A DNA stretch of 64,000 nucleotides, taken from positions 22,856-86,855 of the IMG/VR virus record IMGVR_UViG_3300009163_000026; one strand, given 5' to 3'. Positions 25,523-49,262 of the stretch are shown here, piece by piece. The translations under genes and the position numbers were made by a program. The notes under the pieces were generated by a model. It did not search any database and was not told the origin of the DNA. It saw nothing but the letters and a program-made list of their open reading frames with translations. The stretch comes from a virus. The number at the start of each line of letters is the position of its first letter. The stretch's first letter is position 1.

Positions 25523-27391
25523 TTATGCGGCAGTTTCCTCAACCACTTCAGCATCGAACACACCATCTTTATCAGCTTGTGATTCATCTACTGGCTTAGG
25601 CATTGCTTGCGCTAATTGCATAAGCAATGCTTCAAGTTCACCTTGAGCAGCCTTAAGCGCATCAATATCTTCACCAGCTAAAGCTAGGTTACAAGCAGCA
25701 ATCTTTTCTGTTACTGTCTCTTTAAGCTCACTCGGGATATTCTCTCCCAGCTCTCTTACCTGACCTTCAACATTAAACACAAGTGAACTACACTGATTGC
25801 GTTGATCGATCATATCTACGCGCAGCTTATCAGCATCAGCGTGCAGCTCTGCGTCAGCTTTTGCCTGCTCAATCTCTTCTTTTGATAGTCCAGACGATCC
25901 TTCAATTGAAATTTTCTGCTCCTTGCCGGACTGCTTATCTTTAGCAGACACATGCAGGATACCGTTTGCATCAATATCGAAGGTTACTTCAATTTGAGGT
26001 TCACCTCTACGCGCAGGTGCAATACCGTCTAGTTTAAATTGACCTAGTAATTTATTATCACTAAACATCTTACGCTCACCTTGACAGATTTGAATATCTA
26101 CAGCGGGCTGATTATCAGCTGCTGTAGAGAACGTTTGACTTTTCTTAGCAGGTATAGTTGTATTACGTTCGATAATGTTAGTAGCGATGCCGCCCATTGT
26201 TTCAATTGAGAGTGAGAGAGGAGTAACATCAAGTAGTAGTACATCTGTTACATCTCCTGCTAACACACCGCCTTGAATAGCAGCACCTAACGCAACAACC
26301 TCATCAGGATTAACACCTTGGTTTGGTGCTTTACCTGCTAATGCAGCAGCGGTTTCAACAACCTTAGGCATACGCGTCATACCCCCTACCAAGACAAGTT
26401 CTACAGCACCTTTAATACCACCATCCTTTAAACATTCTTTAACAGGCTTTTTAGTGCGAGTAAACAATGAGTCAGTTAGCTGTTCGAGCTGTGATCTCGT
26501 CATTGTGAGGGAGATATGCTTAGGACCTGTAGCATCAGCCGTAACAAACGGAATTGAAATATCATAAGTCTGTGCTGATGATAGAGCAATCTTAGCCTTC
26601 TCAGACTCCTCTTTGATTCGTTGCAACGCGTCGGGCTGATTAGATAGATCAATGCCTTGATCCTTCTTAAACTCTCCTACAATCCATTCAATTAAAGCAT
26701 TATCCCAATCATCGCCACCTAGTGAGGTATCACCGTTTGTAGATAGAACTTCAAATACTCCATCACCGATTTCGAGTACTGAGATGTCGAAGGTACCGCC
26801 ACCTAAGTCATAGACAGCGATCTTACCGTCTGCCTTCTTATCTAAACCGTAAGCCAAAGCAGCTGCAGTTGGTTCGTTAATGATACGTAACACTTCAAGA
26901 CCGGCAATTTCTCCCGCTGCTTTAGTAGCGCTGCGTTGTGAATCATTAAAGTAAGCTGGTACAGTGATGACTGCTTTAGTAATTTTCTCTCCGATCTTTG
27001 CTTCTGCATCTGCTTTTAGTTTACTTAGAAGCATTGCAGCAATTTCTTGTGGTGAGTATACTTTCTTTTGACCTTCAACTTCAACTTCAATATGTGCATC
27101 ACCGTTAGCTGCTTCTACGATAGTATAAGGTACGCGCTTATCAGCGTCCTTAAGCTCGGAGAATTTGCGACCAATAAGTCGCTTTGCAGAGCTAATTGTA
27201 TTTTTTGGATTGGTTACTGCTTGACGCTTAGCGGCTTGGCCTACAAGGCGTTCACCGTTCTTAGCGAACGCTACTACTGATGGAGTAGTGCGTGCGCCTT
27301 CTGCGTTTTCAAGAATGTTCGCATCTTTACCATCCATGATGGCCATGCACGAGTTAGTAGTTCCTAGGTCGATTCCTAATATTTTTGACAT
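25523..27391 (-). CDS. dnaK: DnaK/Hsp70 chaperone
   Basis: 622 residues, close to the usual 635-640. All ATPase signatures are intact: [10 protein letters not shown] at the N-terminus, [27 protein letters not shown] and LVGGMTRMP. The linker and start of the substrate-binding domain read [18 protein letters not shown], and the C-terminus keeps a helical lid. It would fold virion or host proteins with ATP, working with the phage DnaJ at 2061-3170. It stands alone between a terminator and a fibre gene. The high identity to bacterial DnaK motifs suggests acquisition from a bacterium. Confidence 0.97.
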
Positions 27392-43544: not shown

Positions 43545-43735
43545 AAGTTATTTGAAGGATTGATATAATTGTTAAATATGTAATCAAAGATAGCTTCATC
43601 TTCATCATGATCAACTATATTAAGATCTGATAATAGCTTAGCGTATAGACTATCTTGCTGCGTAGATAAATCTACAATAGCTAGTTTAATACGCTCTATC
43701 TCTGTCTGTTGCTCTGTTGTTAGTTTAGTTTTCAT
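43529..43735 (-). CDS. Small coiled-coil protein
   Basis: 68 residues (TEQQTEIERIKLAIVDLSTQ then QDSLYAKLLSDLN) with an acidic middle. Overlaps both neighbours by 11-16 bp, so it belongs to a coupled four-gene run 44435-42776. Confidence 0.6.
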   Translation of the reverse strand: MKTKLTTEQQTEIERIKLAIVDLSTQQDSLYAKLLSDLNIVDHDEDEAIFDYIFNNYINPSNNLWLQE

Positions 43736-44435
43736 CGGTATACCAAATGTCGAATTTTTTACGATATTTTTTAATAATTTCTAAGATCTTTTCAGCTGTT
43801 GCATCTTTTGTACTAGTAATGTTAACTAGATTATAGATAGTATCTATCAGCTTTTGTGAGTCAGAAGGGTGCGACTTACGTTGTTCTTTATACCTCTCCT
43901 CTCGCTCAACACGTTCAATGAATCGCTCTTTAACAAGAGTATCAACCTCTTCTTCCGTGTGCTTAACTGGGAGAGTATGACTAATAAGAATAACATCACC
44001 TTGTACCTTACCGTTAACTAATTGCACCTGATAATCAATCCACCCATACTGATAACGCAGGTAATTATATTTTCTATGAGATAATTCATTACTATAATCC
44101 TGATGATGATATGATTCGTGGAAATTAATTTCACCTGTAAAATCTACCTTCTCCCAACTACGAGACGTTTCAATATAGTTACCCAATTTATTCCATAAAG
44201 ATAGGGTAGACTTTAATTCTTCAGGTTCAGGATACTCCCAATATCCCTCAATCTTCTCAAAGAGCAGCTGTCCAGTAGAATCAACATTATACAGAGACAT
44301 TGCTTGATTAGGAGTATCTTTAGTTTGAAAGATAACATCACTAGAAAGATTGTCTCCTAGTTTATAGCGATTAAGTATCGCTTGCGGTAACTCCGGAAGC
44401 GGTAACTCTATTTTAAAGTGATCAAACATTCCCAA
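43725..44435 (-). CDS. Conserved phage protein (MGMFD type)
   Basis: 236 residues. MGMFDHFKIELPLPELPQAI and VIFQTKDTPNQAMSLYNVDS match a family of phage proteins that begin MGMFD and contain FQTKD; no function known. The C-terminus is a long charged helix. Confidence 0.7.
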   Translation of the reverse strand: MGMFDHFKIELPLPELPQAILNRYKLGDNLSSDVIFQTKDTPNQAMSLYNVDSTGQLLFEKIEGYWEYPEPEELKSTLSLWNKLGNYIETSRSWEKVDFTGEINFHESYHHQDYSNELSHRKYNYLRYQYGWIDYQVQLVNGKVQGDVILISHTLPVKHTEEEVDTLVKERFIERVEREERYKEQRKSHPSDSQKLIDTIYNLVNITSTKDATAEKILEIIKKYRKKFDIWYTDEN

Positions 44436-44472: not shown

Positions 44473-44538
44473 TGGTGGACGCTGGGGAATCGAACCCCGT
44501 CCGCGACTTTCTTGTCACGTCGAATCCATGTAACGCCC
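44473..44538 (-). ncRNA. Minimal tmRNA-like RNA (tRNA-like domain only)
   Basis: 66 nt. The 5' arm GGGCGTT pairs with AGCGTCC at the 3' end, followed by A and CCA. ACATGGATTCGACG matches the 5' tmRNA signature GGATTCGACG, and GCGGACGGGGTTCGATTCC has the tmRNA 3' signature. Between them, instead of the mRNA-like domain and pseudoknots, is only CGTGAC-AAGAAA-GTCGCG, a closed short P2-like hairpin. No tag reading frame is possible inside. It could be a decayed gene or a working tmRNA mimic. Confidence 0.65.
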
Positions 44539-44578
44539 GTTAAAATTATTGTAATTTAATCTTTATTATTTGCAAGAT

Positions 44579-44824
44579 TTAAACGCTAATACTTTTACTA
44601 AAGTTCTTAACGCAACTCCTAGCACCATTAGGAATAAAATATTTTTTATTTCTATTCCAACTATCAGCGCTATGAATCTCAATTTCTGCACCGGTCTTAT
44701 GACCGTAGACTTGACGTCCCTTCGGTCGCGGCACATCAGGTCCAGTAAAAGCGCAACTCCTACAACACTTAAGACCGAGTTCGCGTCGACCTTCCTCAAC
44801 TAAGTTTCCACATCCACAATTCAT
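44579..44824 (-). CDS. Small phage protein with N-terminal Cys cluster
   Basis: 81 residues. MNCGCGNLVEEGRRELGLKC then CRSC gives five Cys (zinc site likely), followed by RPKGRQVYGHKTGAEIEIHS. The second half matches short phage proteins containing YGHKTGAE-EIH and WNRNKKYF. Function unknown. Confidence 0.7.
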   Translation of the reverse strand: MNCGCGNLVEEGRRELGLKCCRSCAFTGPDVPRPKGRQVYGHKTGAEIEIHSADSWNRNKKYFIPNGARSCVKNFSKSISV

Positions 44825-46313: not shown

Positions 46314-49262
46314 ATGGGTATTAAGATTTCAGACCTGCCAAAGGTTACATCAACTATAACGGGTGAAGAGTCTTTTATAGTTGTGCAGAATAATATAACT
46401 AAGCAGACGAGCTTAAATTTTGCACTTTCTAGTGACAGAAAAAGAACAGGGGATCTATACACTTTAATTACAGCTAATAGCGCAGGGTGGGCTACCGCAA
46501 GTCAAAATATTAACAACTTTGCTACGCTTACGAGCTTTACCGTGGGACCGGCTCAAAGTGCTACAGCAATATATACAACGGTTATAGGTCTTTGCTCCAT
46601 CGCTTCAGCTAGAGGTTCTATAGCATTAGGGGAAAATGTAAAAGCATTAGGTTCAAATAGTTTTGTACAGGGAACATGTAATACGGCTTGTGGCTCTAGA
46701 TCTAACGTATTAGGTGGTATTAATAATAGAGCTGTTGGTAATTGTTCTAGTGTAGTAGGTGGTCTTAGTAATCAGACTTGTGGGTTTATTTCCAATATAG
46801 GTGGTGGATTTAATAATATAGCTTTTGGTTCTTACGCTGCTGTAGCTGGCGGCTATAGTAATAATGCTTGTGGTAATAATTCCGTTGTAGCTGGTGGTAG
46901 TAATAATAAGGCTTGTAGTAAATGTTCTAATATAGCAGGGGGAGCTAATAATATTGCTTACGATACATCGTGTCTCCCCGGGGGAGATGATGATCAAGGA
47001 CTTAATGGTGCAAATACTATTGGAGGTGGTCTATTCAATGTCGCGGGTAATAGCTCTAGTTCAGGGTATGGATTTAATGTTGTAGCTGGTGGATGTCGTA
47101 ATATGGCAGTTGATGAATTCTCTAATGTGTCAGGTGGTCAGTATAATAGGGCTTTAAGTGCTTATTCTAATGTAGCTGGTGGGCGTTGTAATACGGCTTG
47201 TAATTGCTTTTCTACTGTAGCTGGCGGGAGTTTAAATATAGCTTCTGGTGCTAATTCTACCGTAGGTGGTGGAGCTCGTAATATAGCTTCTGGTGTTGTT
47301 TCTACTGTAGCTGGTGGTATTTATAATACAGCGTCTGCCCTTAATTCTAATGTGGCAGGCGGTAGTGATAATACAGCTTGTGGTTGTTATTCTAATGTAG
47401 CTGGTGGGCGTTGTAATACAGCTTCTGGCTATTATTCTAATGTAGCTGGTGGGCGTTGTAATACAGCTAGTTGTTATTGTACTAATGTAGCTGGTGGCTA
47501 TTGTAATACAGCTTCTGGTACTTATTCTAATGTAGCTGGTGGGCGTTGTAATACAGCTTCTTATTATGATTCTGCAGTAGGTGGAGGATTTAGTAATACA
47601 GCTAGTAGTTCTTTTTCTAATGTAGCTGGTGGTGGTAATAATACAGCTTCTGGTGTTGGTTCTAATGTAGCTGGGGGGCTAAATAATATTGCCTCATTTG
47701 GTGTTTCTAATGTAGCTGGTGGGTGTTGTAATAAGGCTTGTGGTGCTATTTCTAATGTAGCCGGTGGAGGTGATAATATAGCTTCAGGTTGTTATTCTAA
47801 TGTAGCCGGTGGTTTAAGTGGTAAAGCTTCTGGTTATGCTTCTAATGTAGCTGGTGGGTGTTGTAATACAGCTTGTGGTTTTTTCTCTAATGTAGCTGGT
47901 GGGTATCGTAATACAGCTCTTGGTAATTATTCTAATGTAGCTGGTGGGCGTTGTAATACATCTTCTGGTTATGTTTCTAATGTGGCTGGTGGGCAGTGTA
48001 ATACAGCTTCTGGTTGTTATACTAATGTAGCTGGTGGTGTGAGTAATAGAGCTTTGGTTTGTTTTTCTAACGTAGGTGGCGGGTATTGTAATGCAGCTTG
48101 TGAATGTTACTCTACTGTAGGTGGTGGGCGTTGTAATACATCTTCTGGTTATGTTTCTAATGTGGCTGGTGGTATTTGTAATGCAGCAAATGGTGTTAGT
48201 TCTAATGTAGCTGGTGGGAGGTGTAATACAGCTTCTAATTATTACTCTAATGTAGCTGGTGGGTGTTGTAATACAGCTTCTGGTACTTATTCTACTGTAG
48301 CTGGTGGGCGTTGTAATACAGCTTCTAATTATTACTCTAGTGTAGCTGGTGGGTATTGTAATACAGCTTCTGGTTGTTACTCTAATGTAGCCGGTGGGGT
48401 TAATAATACAGTTTCTGGTTTTTACTCTAATGTAGCTGGTGGAGCTTTAAATGCAGTTTCTGGTAGTTGTTCTAATGTAGGTGGTGGGTTTTGTAATACA
48501 GTTAGCAGCCTTTATGCTAATATAGCTGGTGGGAAGGGTAATTTAGCTTCTAATTATTCTGCTACTGTAGCTGGTGGTACTAGTAATACAGCTTCTGGTG
48601 TTTATTCTACTGTAGCAGGGGGACGGAACAATACAGCTTCTGGTTATGTTTCTAATGTAGCTGGTGGGTGTTATAATACAGCTTTAAGCGCTTATTCTAA
48701 TGTAGCTGGTGGGTGTTTTAATATAGCTTCTGGTTGTTATTCTAGTGTACTAGGTGGTCTTAGTAGTAGAGCTTCTGGTCCTTATTCTACTATAGCAGGA
48801 GGACAGTATAATACAGCTTCTGGTTGTTGGTCTACTATAGCAGGCGGCTTTCTTAATACAGCTTCTGGTACTTATTCTAATGTAGCAGTCGGCTATGGTA
48901 ATACAGCTTCTGGTACTTATTCTACTATAGCTGGTGGGCGTCTTAATACAGCTTCCAATTATCTAGCTATAGTAGGCGGTGGGGTTCGTAATACAGCTTC
49001 TGGATTTTACTCTAGTGTAATCAATGGTTTTAGTGGTAGAGTGTTTGCATGTCACTCTACTATACTTAATGGTTGCTGTAATACAATAAGAACTGCGGCT
49101 AGTGCTTCATCTATTCTAGCTGGTACAAGTGTTACTGCTATATCTGCAAATACGGCATACGCAACTTGCTTGGTGTTAAGCAACCTACCTAGTTCAAGCA
49201 CTGGTCTCGGTGCAGGTACTATATGGAAATGTACTGCAACAAATGCTTTGTATATTGTATAA
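46314..49262 (+). CDS. Cys-rich YadA-like repeat adhesin
   Basis: 982 residues. Residues 1-40 (GIKISDLPKVTSTITGEESF) form an anchor domain shared with two other fibre genes. From about 120 to 920 come about 53 fifteen-residue units of the type SNVAGGRCNTASGYY, a left-handed beta-roll pattern like YadA heads (NSVAIG-x-S-x-A-x-G). Many units carry Cys at fixed places (RCN, GCY, ACG), which is unusual for an extracellular repeat. A 20-residue non-repeat insert lies near residue 220 (TSCLPGGDDDQGLNG). It ends with a compact tail. Probably a tail-fibre or receptor-binding trimer. Confidence 0.75.
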   Translation: MGIKISDLPKVTSTITGEESFIVVQNNITKQTSLNFALSSDRKRTGDLYTLITANSAGWATASQNINNFATLTSFTVGPAQSATAIYTTVIGLCSIASARGSIALGENVKALGSNSFVQGTCNTACGSRSNVLGGINNRAVGNCSSVVGGLSNQTCGFISNIGGGFNNIAFGSYAAVAGGYSNNACGNNSVVAGGSNNKACSKCSNIAGGANNIAYDTSCLPGGDDDQGLNGANTIGGGLFNVAGNSSSSGYGFNVVAGGCRNMAVDEFSNVSGGQYNRALSAYSNVAGGRCNTACNCFSTVAGGSLNIASGANSTVGGGARNIASGVVSTVAGGIYNTASALNSNVAGGSDNTACGCYSNVAGGRCNTASGYYSNVAGGRCNTASCYCTNVAGGYCNTASGTYSNVAGGRCNTASYYDSAVGGGFSNTASSSFSNVAGGGNNTASGVGSNVAGGLNNIASFGVSNVAGGCCNKACGAISNVAGGGDNIASGCYSNVAGGLSGKASGYASNVAGGCCNTACGFFSNVAGGYRNTALGNYSNVAGGRCNTSSGYVSNVAGGQCNTASGCYTNVAGGVSNRALVCFSNVGGGYCNAACECYSTVGGGRCNTSSGYVSNVAGGICNAANGVSSNVAGGRCNTASNYYSNVAGGCCNTASGTYSTVAGGRCNTASNYYSSVAGGYCNTASGCYSNVAGGVNNTVSGFYSNVAGGALNAVSGSCSNVGGGFCNTVSSLYANIAGGKGNLASNYSATVAGGTSNTASGVYSTVAGGRNNTASGYVSNVAGGCYNTALSAYSNVAGGCFNIASGCYSSVLGGLSSRASGPYSTIAGGQYNTASGCWSTIAGGFLNTASGTYSNVAVGYGNTASGTYSTIAGGRLNTASNYLAIVGGGVRNTASGFYSSVINGFSGRVFACHSTILNGCCNTIRTAASASSILAGTSVTAISANTAYATCLVLSNLPSSSTGLGAGTIWKCTATNALYIV
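46690..49080 (+). repeat. 45-bp coding tandem repeat array
   Basis: Units recur every 45 bp with GTAGCTGG and AATACAGCTTC as the most stable words; divergence between units is high in the variable 6-9 bases. Confidence 0.85.

Follow-up and report, generated by a model that had tools for sequence, protein, structure and literature searches.

Entry of tmRNA into a stalled ribosome depends on alanyl-tRNA synthetase (AlaRS), EF-Tu and SmpB; its message then allows translation to finish and the ribosome to be released. Among described systems, mycobacteriophage DS6A encodes a tmRNA that consists of little more than the tRNA-like domain (TLD), as far as the accounts of Mao et al. (2009) in PMC4131195 and PMC11915505 go. 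In the same accounts, an RNA similar to that of DS6A strongly inhibited tmRNA in E. coli whether or not it could be charged, perhaps by titration of SmpB (PMC4131195; PMC11915505). Reduced forms have also been reported from organelles, namely CDS-less plastid tmRNAs of about 65 bp in the Mallomonadaceae and tag-less mitochondrial tmRNAs, which are believed to work together with a mitochondrial SmpB (PMC11915505). Full-length tmRNAs, with tag and pseudoknots, are encoded by phages such as Bxz1, Cali, Streptomyces phage Forrest and Melnitz.

The window, by which we mean the whole 64,000-nucleotide stretch of viral DNA that was analysed, contains on its minus strand, at positions 44473-44538, a 66-nt RNA gene for the TLD of a tmRNA from which the tag message is absent. 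Its acceptor, D-loop and T-arm are as in the full-length phage tmRNAs, whereas it encodes neither tag nor pseudoknots, and relative to the bacterial one-piece tmRNA (RF00023) it retains the whole TLD, including the G3-U70 pair, but lacks about 310 of the 374 model positions. It is similar in size to the organellar RNAs, which have likewise lost the tag; those were reduced by reductive evolution, whereas the TLD-only family described below is viral and under visible structural selection. The DS6A RNA, likened to the window RNA by its published description alone, is TLD-only as well, and the gene content of the two phages is unrelated as far as seen. A phage TLD-only tmRNA as such is thus already on record, and the sequence-only reading of the window, in which no such phage element was known, was mistaken on this point.

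The RNA of the window phage

The full RNA (44538-44473, minus strand) is GGGCGTTACATGGATTCGACGTGACAAGAAAGTCGCGGACGGGGTTCGATTCCCCAGCGTCCACCA, laid out as 5'-GGGCGTT ACATGGATTCGA CGTGAC AAGAAA GTCGCG GAC GGGG TTCGATT CCCC AGCGTCC A CCA-3'. The 5' strand of the acceptor stem, GGGCGTT, which provides G3 (44532..44538), is followed by the tmRNA-type D-loop domain ACATGGATTCGA, which has no D stem and aligns to GGaUUCGA of RF00023 (44520..44531). The place of the tag reading frame and pseudoknots is taken by a P2 stem of 6 bp with a 6-nt loop, CGTGAC-AAGAAA-GTCGCG (44502..44519); this 18-nt hairpin alone lies between the D and T domains, and there is neither a tag reading frame nor a resume codon. 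The T arm GGGG-TTCGATT-CCCC (44484..44498), the 3' strand of the acceptor stem, AGCGTCC, with U70 (44477..44483), and the discriminator A73 with an encoded CCA (44473..44476) complete the RNA. The acceptor has seven pairs, G3-U70 among them, which together with A73 constitutes alanine identity. The T stem has 4 bp and not the usual 5, giving an acceptor/T stack of 11 bp.

In a 1-kb search with cmscan, RF00023 aligned to the RNA from model position 1 to 374 with the whole middle absent, pseudoknots included (43.8 bits, E = 6.2e-16), and over the whole 86.9-kb virus record the RNA was the sole tmRNA match (E = 1.3e-17). This score is just under the gathering score of 47, as expected for an RNA that lacks most of the model; among the relatives, 52 of 54 records exceeded that cut-off. 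A covariance model, R1, which was built from the long (78-85 nt) class of relatives without the window RNA, ranked this RNA first in the window (34.6 bits, E = 8.8e-7), ahead of an ordinary tRNA at 20 bits, and scored copies from cultured phages at 52-84 bits. Nucleotide BLAST of the RNA against phages returned only partial matches to tRNAs or tmRNA 3' ends. ARAGORN called nothing at 44473-44538, the four ordinary tRNAs that it found in the window lying at other places, and the Rfam tRNA model at gathering thresholds found no tRNA at 44473-44538 either. Compared with tRNA (RF00005), the RNA has no D stem, and it has a 6-bp stem with a 6-nt loop, not a 5-bp anticodon stem with a 7-nt loop. An ordinary tRNA is therefore ruled out by ARAGORN, the Rfam tRNA model and the RF00023 match, and a circularly permuted two-piece tmRNA is ruled out by the contiguity of D-arm, P2 and T-arm in normal order. 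The sequence-only reading had proposed, with correct coordinates and sequence, a tmRNA reduced to its TLD with both ends, a 7-bp acceptor and CCA, with tag ORF and pseudoknots replaced by a 6-bp hairpin with an AAGAAA loop and with an AlaRS-type G3-U70 pair; the sequence and the RF00023 alignment agree with this description, and the best Rfam family is tmRNA.

By itself, the window RNA is predicted to fold at nearly equal energy as a TLD (-23.8 kcal/mol) or as a D-loop/T-arm alternative (-24.1 kcal/mol), and the gain in energy over shuffled sequences was modest (z = -1.57). The case for this RNA therefore rests on comparison. With its 4-bp T stem, which among the matches listed is common to the window RNA and L002, a 5-bp stem being the rule in 95 of 98 relatives, and with its score under the Rfam cut-off, it is a divergent family member. 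The short T stem and the nearly equal alternative fold are grounds for caution over the window copy. The GC content is 59% for the RNA versus 38% for the window.

The RNA is intergenic, with an upstream gene for an 81-aa Cys-rich small protein (44579..44824) and a downstream gene for a 236-aa protein (43725..44435), both on the minus strand like the RNA itself; for the 236-aa protein, no relative was found in viral contigs when it was used to seek relatives of the window phage. A promoter-like TTGCAA-16-TACAAT (44548..44575, minus strand) ends 9 nt before the RNA, and is suggestive only, the number of such sites not being above chance. The window also encodes a DnaK homologue, HNH proteins, metallophosphoesterases, a DnaB/RecA-like ATPase and the four tRNAs. 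The DnaK/HSP70 is full-length (25526-27391, minus strand; 813 bits), with best matches in the phage collection about 60% identical. As to the host, matches of structural proteins hint weakly at mycobacteriophages and Microcystis phages. A 982-aa protein (46314-49262, plus strand), with repeated CNTACxC-like peptides and no PHROG match, has relatives in 13 viral contigs. None of these 13 contains a TLD-only RNA, and therefore what we infer about the window copy draws on the family and not on its own lineage.

The family and its genomic settings

IMG/VR was scanned with patterns that placed the D-loop and T-arm motifs at a short distance from each other and left the acceptor stem and hairpin free. 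The GGATTCGAC scan gave 13 contigs and the GGTTTCGAC scan at least 120, and the TLD-only design was thus found in at least 133 other IMG/VR contigs, in all 133 of which a 6-7 bp acceptor stem was in place. The truncation, for which the sequence-only reading had proposed to search related phages, is present in these contigs and in cultured phages. Its recurrence, with compensatory changes, in many unrelated contigs rules out an assembly deletion as a general explanation. With the window RNA, the matches listed amount to at least 98 distinct sequences in 66 clusters at 85% identity. Two sizes occur: RNAs of 64-70 nt with a plain hairpin, to which the window RNA belongs, and RNAs of 78-85 nt, in which an asymmetric, A-rich internal loop links P2 to a small capped hairpin, often GAAAGCCGCACGCGGA, a motif we take to be comparable, as a lead only, to GAAACCC at the matching place of E. 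coli tmRNA. For the relatives, the best Rfam family is tmRNA, with the TLD alone present.

Such genes are easily missed. When ARAGORN was run on ten clear family members outside tRNA arrays, two were called ordinary tRNAs, namely tRNA-Glu (L211, 8486-8576) and tRNA-Arg (L237, 1899-1981), and the rest were not called; more TLD-only tmRNAs may therefore hide in database annotations. Other structured RNAs were seen on two of the viral contigs, a Pistol ribozyme (50.7 bits; L001, 5916-6012, minus strand) and, about 1 kb from the TLD-only tmRNA, a RAGATH-24 RNA (54.1 bits; L211, 9494-9696, minus strand).

The RNA is found in several genomic settings. In at least about two dozen contigs, it lies between the genes for the head-maturation protease and the major capsid protein, and Pontimonas phage phiPsal1 has the same gene order, with three flanking genes homologous to those of these contigs. 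The capsid proteins of this group are 43-91% identical, and each member keeps the RNA with a different but paired P2 stem. In the Streptomyces phages LuckySocke, GiJojo, Alone3, pSt2308, BRock, Riptide and the Karimacviruses, the RNA lies in or beside tRNA arrays; neither these copies nor that of phiPsal1 carry an RNA annotation. In Streptomyces phage Forrest, the tRNA array includes a full tmRNA that is annotated, and Karimacvirus phages such as LukeCage have a full tmRNA plus a diverged TLD-only RNA. The LukeCage copy, with a drifted D-loop, was a doubtful-looking BLAST match and was missed by RF00023, and scored 52 bits with R1; an RNA of this type (L255, 3001-3078) has no UUCGAC in its D-loop and keeps G3-U70. 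In other contigs, the RNA is near helicase or HNH genes, and its orientation is sometimes opposite to that of the neighbouring genes.

In two bacterial phyla, searched through 397 and 399 species genomes, the GGTTTCGAC pattern did not occur, which gives the TLD-only form the look of a viral or mobile element and not of a chromosomal one. There is an exception in cyanobacteria. The genome of Pseudanabaenaceae LEGE 13415 contains, besides a normal tmRNA, a TLD-only tmRNA (L062, 2383-2463, plus strand; 53 bits with R1) that adjoins tRNA-Trp, tRNA-Glu and genes for a VWA-domain protein and a Tpt1/KptA RNA 2'-phosphotransferase. This was the one real case among the matches listed from a loose-pattern scan of a genome collection, the others being mostly chance matches in tRNA-synthetase genes and at the ends of full tmRNAs. 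Plasmids of Nostoc sp. MS1 (L279, 4994-5074) and Kovacikia minuta (L280, 4981-5078) carry similar elements within large tRNA arrays, the Kovacikia copy with extra sequence inserted in the T arm.

Structural selection and alanine identity

The letters of the D- and T-loops are invariant partly through the search pattern, whereas the acceptor, P2, the discriminator and G3-U70 were not demanded by it. G3-U70 and A73 were nevertheless present in all 98 distinct sequences among the matches listed, while acceptor pairs 4, 5 and 6 vary freely with compensation across the family. The acceptor was complete in 96 of 98 sequences, versus 15 of 98 after the 3' halves were swapped between sequences, and the mean number of contiguous P2 pairs fell from 6.6 to 1.9 on swapping halves. 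In an alignment of 22 gap-free sequences, 95% of the cells pair, with changes on both sides in 117 cells versus 36 in shuffles; the covariation score was 0.61 versus 0.15 for shuffled alignments (reached in 0 of 500 shuffles) and 0.06-0.11 for slid controls. The acceptor, P2 and T stems all covary strongly, and RNAalifold independently predicted the same stems. Furthermore, the copies from cultured Streptomyces phages, which BLAST and not a pattern scan had found, show drift of the D-loop in several cases (GGTTTTGAC, GGCACGAC, GGTTAGAT, GGTGTGAC), and G3-U70 and A73 stay in the copies listed. Judged from these comparisons, the TLD-only RNA is functional at the level of the family.

G3-U70 is the main identity element for AlaRS, and its invariance suggests that charging matters in nature. 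This would favour competition at the A site, or a tag-less form of rescue, over titration alone. The published inhibition needed no charging, which is a point against the competitor model, yet G3-U70 is invariant here, and therefore simple titration of SmpB does not explain all of the selection.

Possible function and alternative explanations

We put at slightly above an even chance the reading that this is a phage-encoded message-less tmRNA, made up of a TLD and a capped P2 stem, and that it acts as a competitor of host tmRNA. The RNA would be transcribed and processed like a tRNA and would fold as a TLD, as supported by the covariation; host AlaRS would charge it with alanine via G3-U70 and A73, both of which are seen, and host SmpB and EF-Tu would bind it via the tmRNA-type D-loop and elbow, no SmpB gene having been found in the 55 records examined. 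By analogy with the inhibitory RNA in E. coli, a charged RNA of this kind may bind the same proteins as tmRNA, and since it has the features for AlaRS, EF-Tu and SmpB and no message, it should block the same ribosomal site. For the window RNA, an alanylated SmpB-binding competitor of host trans-translation would be the best mechanism. The jamming of host trans-translation that the sequence-only reading had suggested thus stands as the best reading, given that TLD-only RNAs inhibit tmRNA (PMC4131195; PMC11915505), and for the window RNA itself it is carried over by inference.

A pure host-antagonist model does not predict the occurrence of a full tmRNA together with a TLD-only RNA in LukeCage-type phages, nor the copies in cyanobacterial tRNA arrays. 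It is conceivable, although we think it unlikely, that the charged RNA enters the stalled ribosome, takes the nascent chain and, together with peptidyl-tRNA hydrolase or some alternative factor, helps release; one alanine and no degradation tag would be added, which would aid phage translation and spare phage proteins, and rescue would not be blocked. Such tag-less rescue would agree with the invariant alanine identity, the tRNA genes often found nearby and the tag-less mitochondrial tmRNAs thought to function with mitochondrial SmpB (PMC11915505), but release without a reading frame has no established mechanism, the E. coli experiment showed inhibition (PMC4131195), and a release-factor domain (PF00472) was found in none of the 34 records examined. 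The position between protease and capsid genes in at least about two dozen contigs and phiPsal1 could also reflect a tRNA-like processing or stability element, in which RNase P and 3' tRNA nucleases excise the fold and set mRNA ends, for instance before the capsid gene. This we consider distinctly improbable, because such an element has no need for G3-U70 or A73 in every copy, and because the RNA also lies in tRNA arrays and beside helicase and HNH genes, sometimes opposite to its neighbours.

The sequence-only reading had also allowed for a remnant of a phage tmRNA. The full tmRNAs of the related Streptomyces phages Forrest and LukeCage and the shortened T stem of the window copy would be in keeping with decay; for the family it is contradicted by the covariation of all stems and by a position that persists over large protein divergence, and we give it very little weight. 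Least credible of all is an odd tRNA or an attachment-site copy of host ssrA, despite the two ARAGORN tRNA calls and the common use of ssrA as an integration target (PMC11915505): the absence of a D stem and of a 7-nt anticodon loop, the tmRNA D-loop and the best Rfam family, tmRNA, speak against a tRNA, and an attachment core comprises the 3' end only, yet both ends are kept.

Returning to the family as a whole, we are evenly divided on whether TLD-only tmRNAs are a large and old viral family of charged antagonists or tag-less substitutes with their own conserved, GAAAGCCGCACGCGGA-like P2 cap, extending across Streptomyces, Pontimonas and uncultured phages and the cyanobacterial tRNA-array elements. 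The literature searched, which included few subscription journals, contained no report of such a wide occurrence, of the covariation, of the invariant alanine identity or of the synteny, and the breadth of the family, its covariation and its invariant alanine identity appear to be new. The main interest is thus in the family-level picture, to which the window RNA adds one further member beside DS6A.

Trans-translation is nearly universal in bacteria and is a drug target, and we know of few viral countermeasures to it. Carriers of the RNA include cultured phages of Streptomyces lividans and Pontimonas salivibrio, and the proposal can therefore be tested now. If it is true, ribosome rescue would have a natural inhibitor in a widespread viral RNA that retains fold and alanine identity without the message, and this would show that phages gain in infection from blocking or bypassing the pathway.
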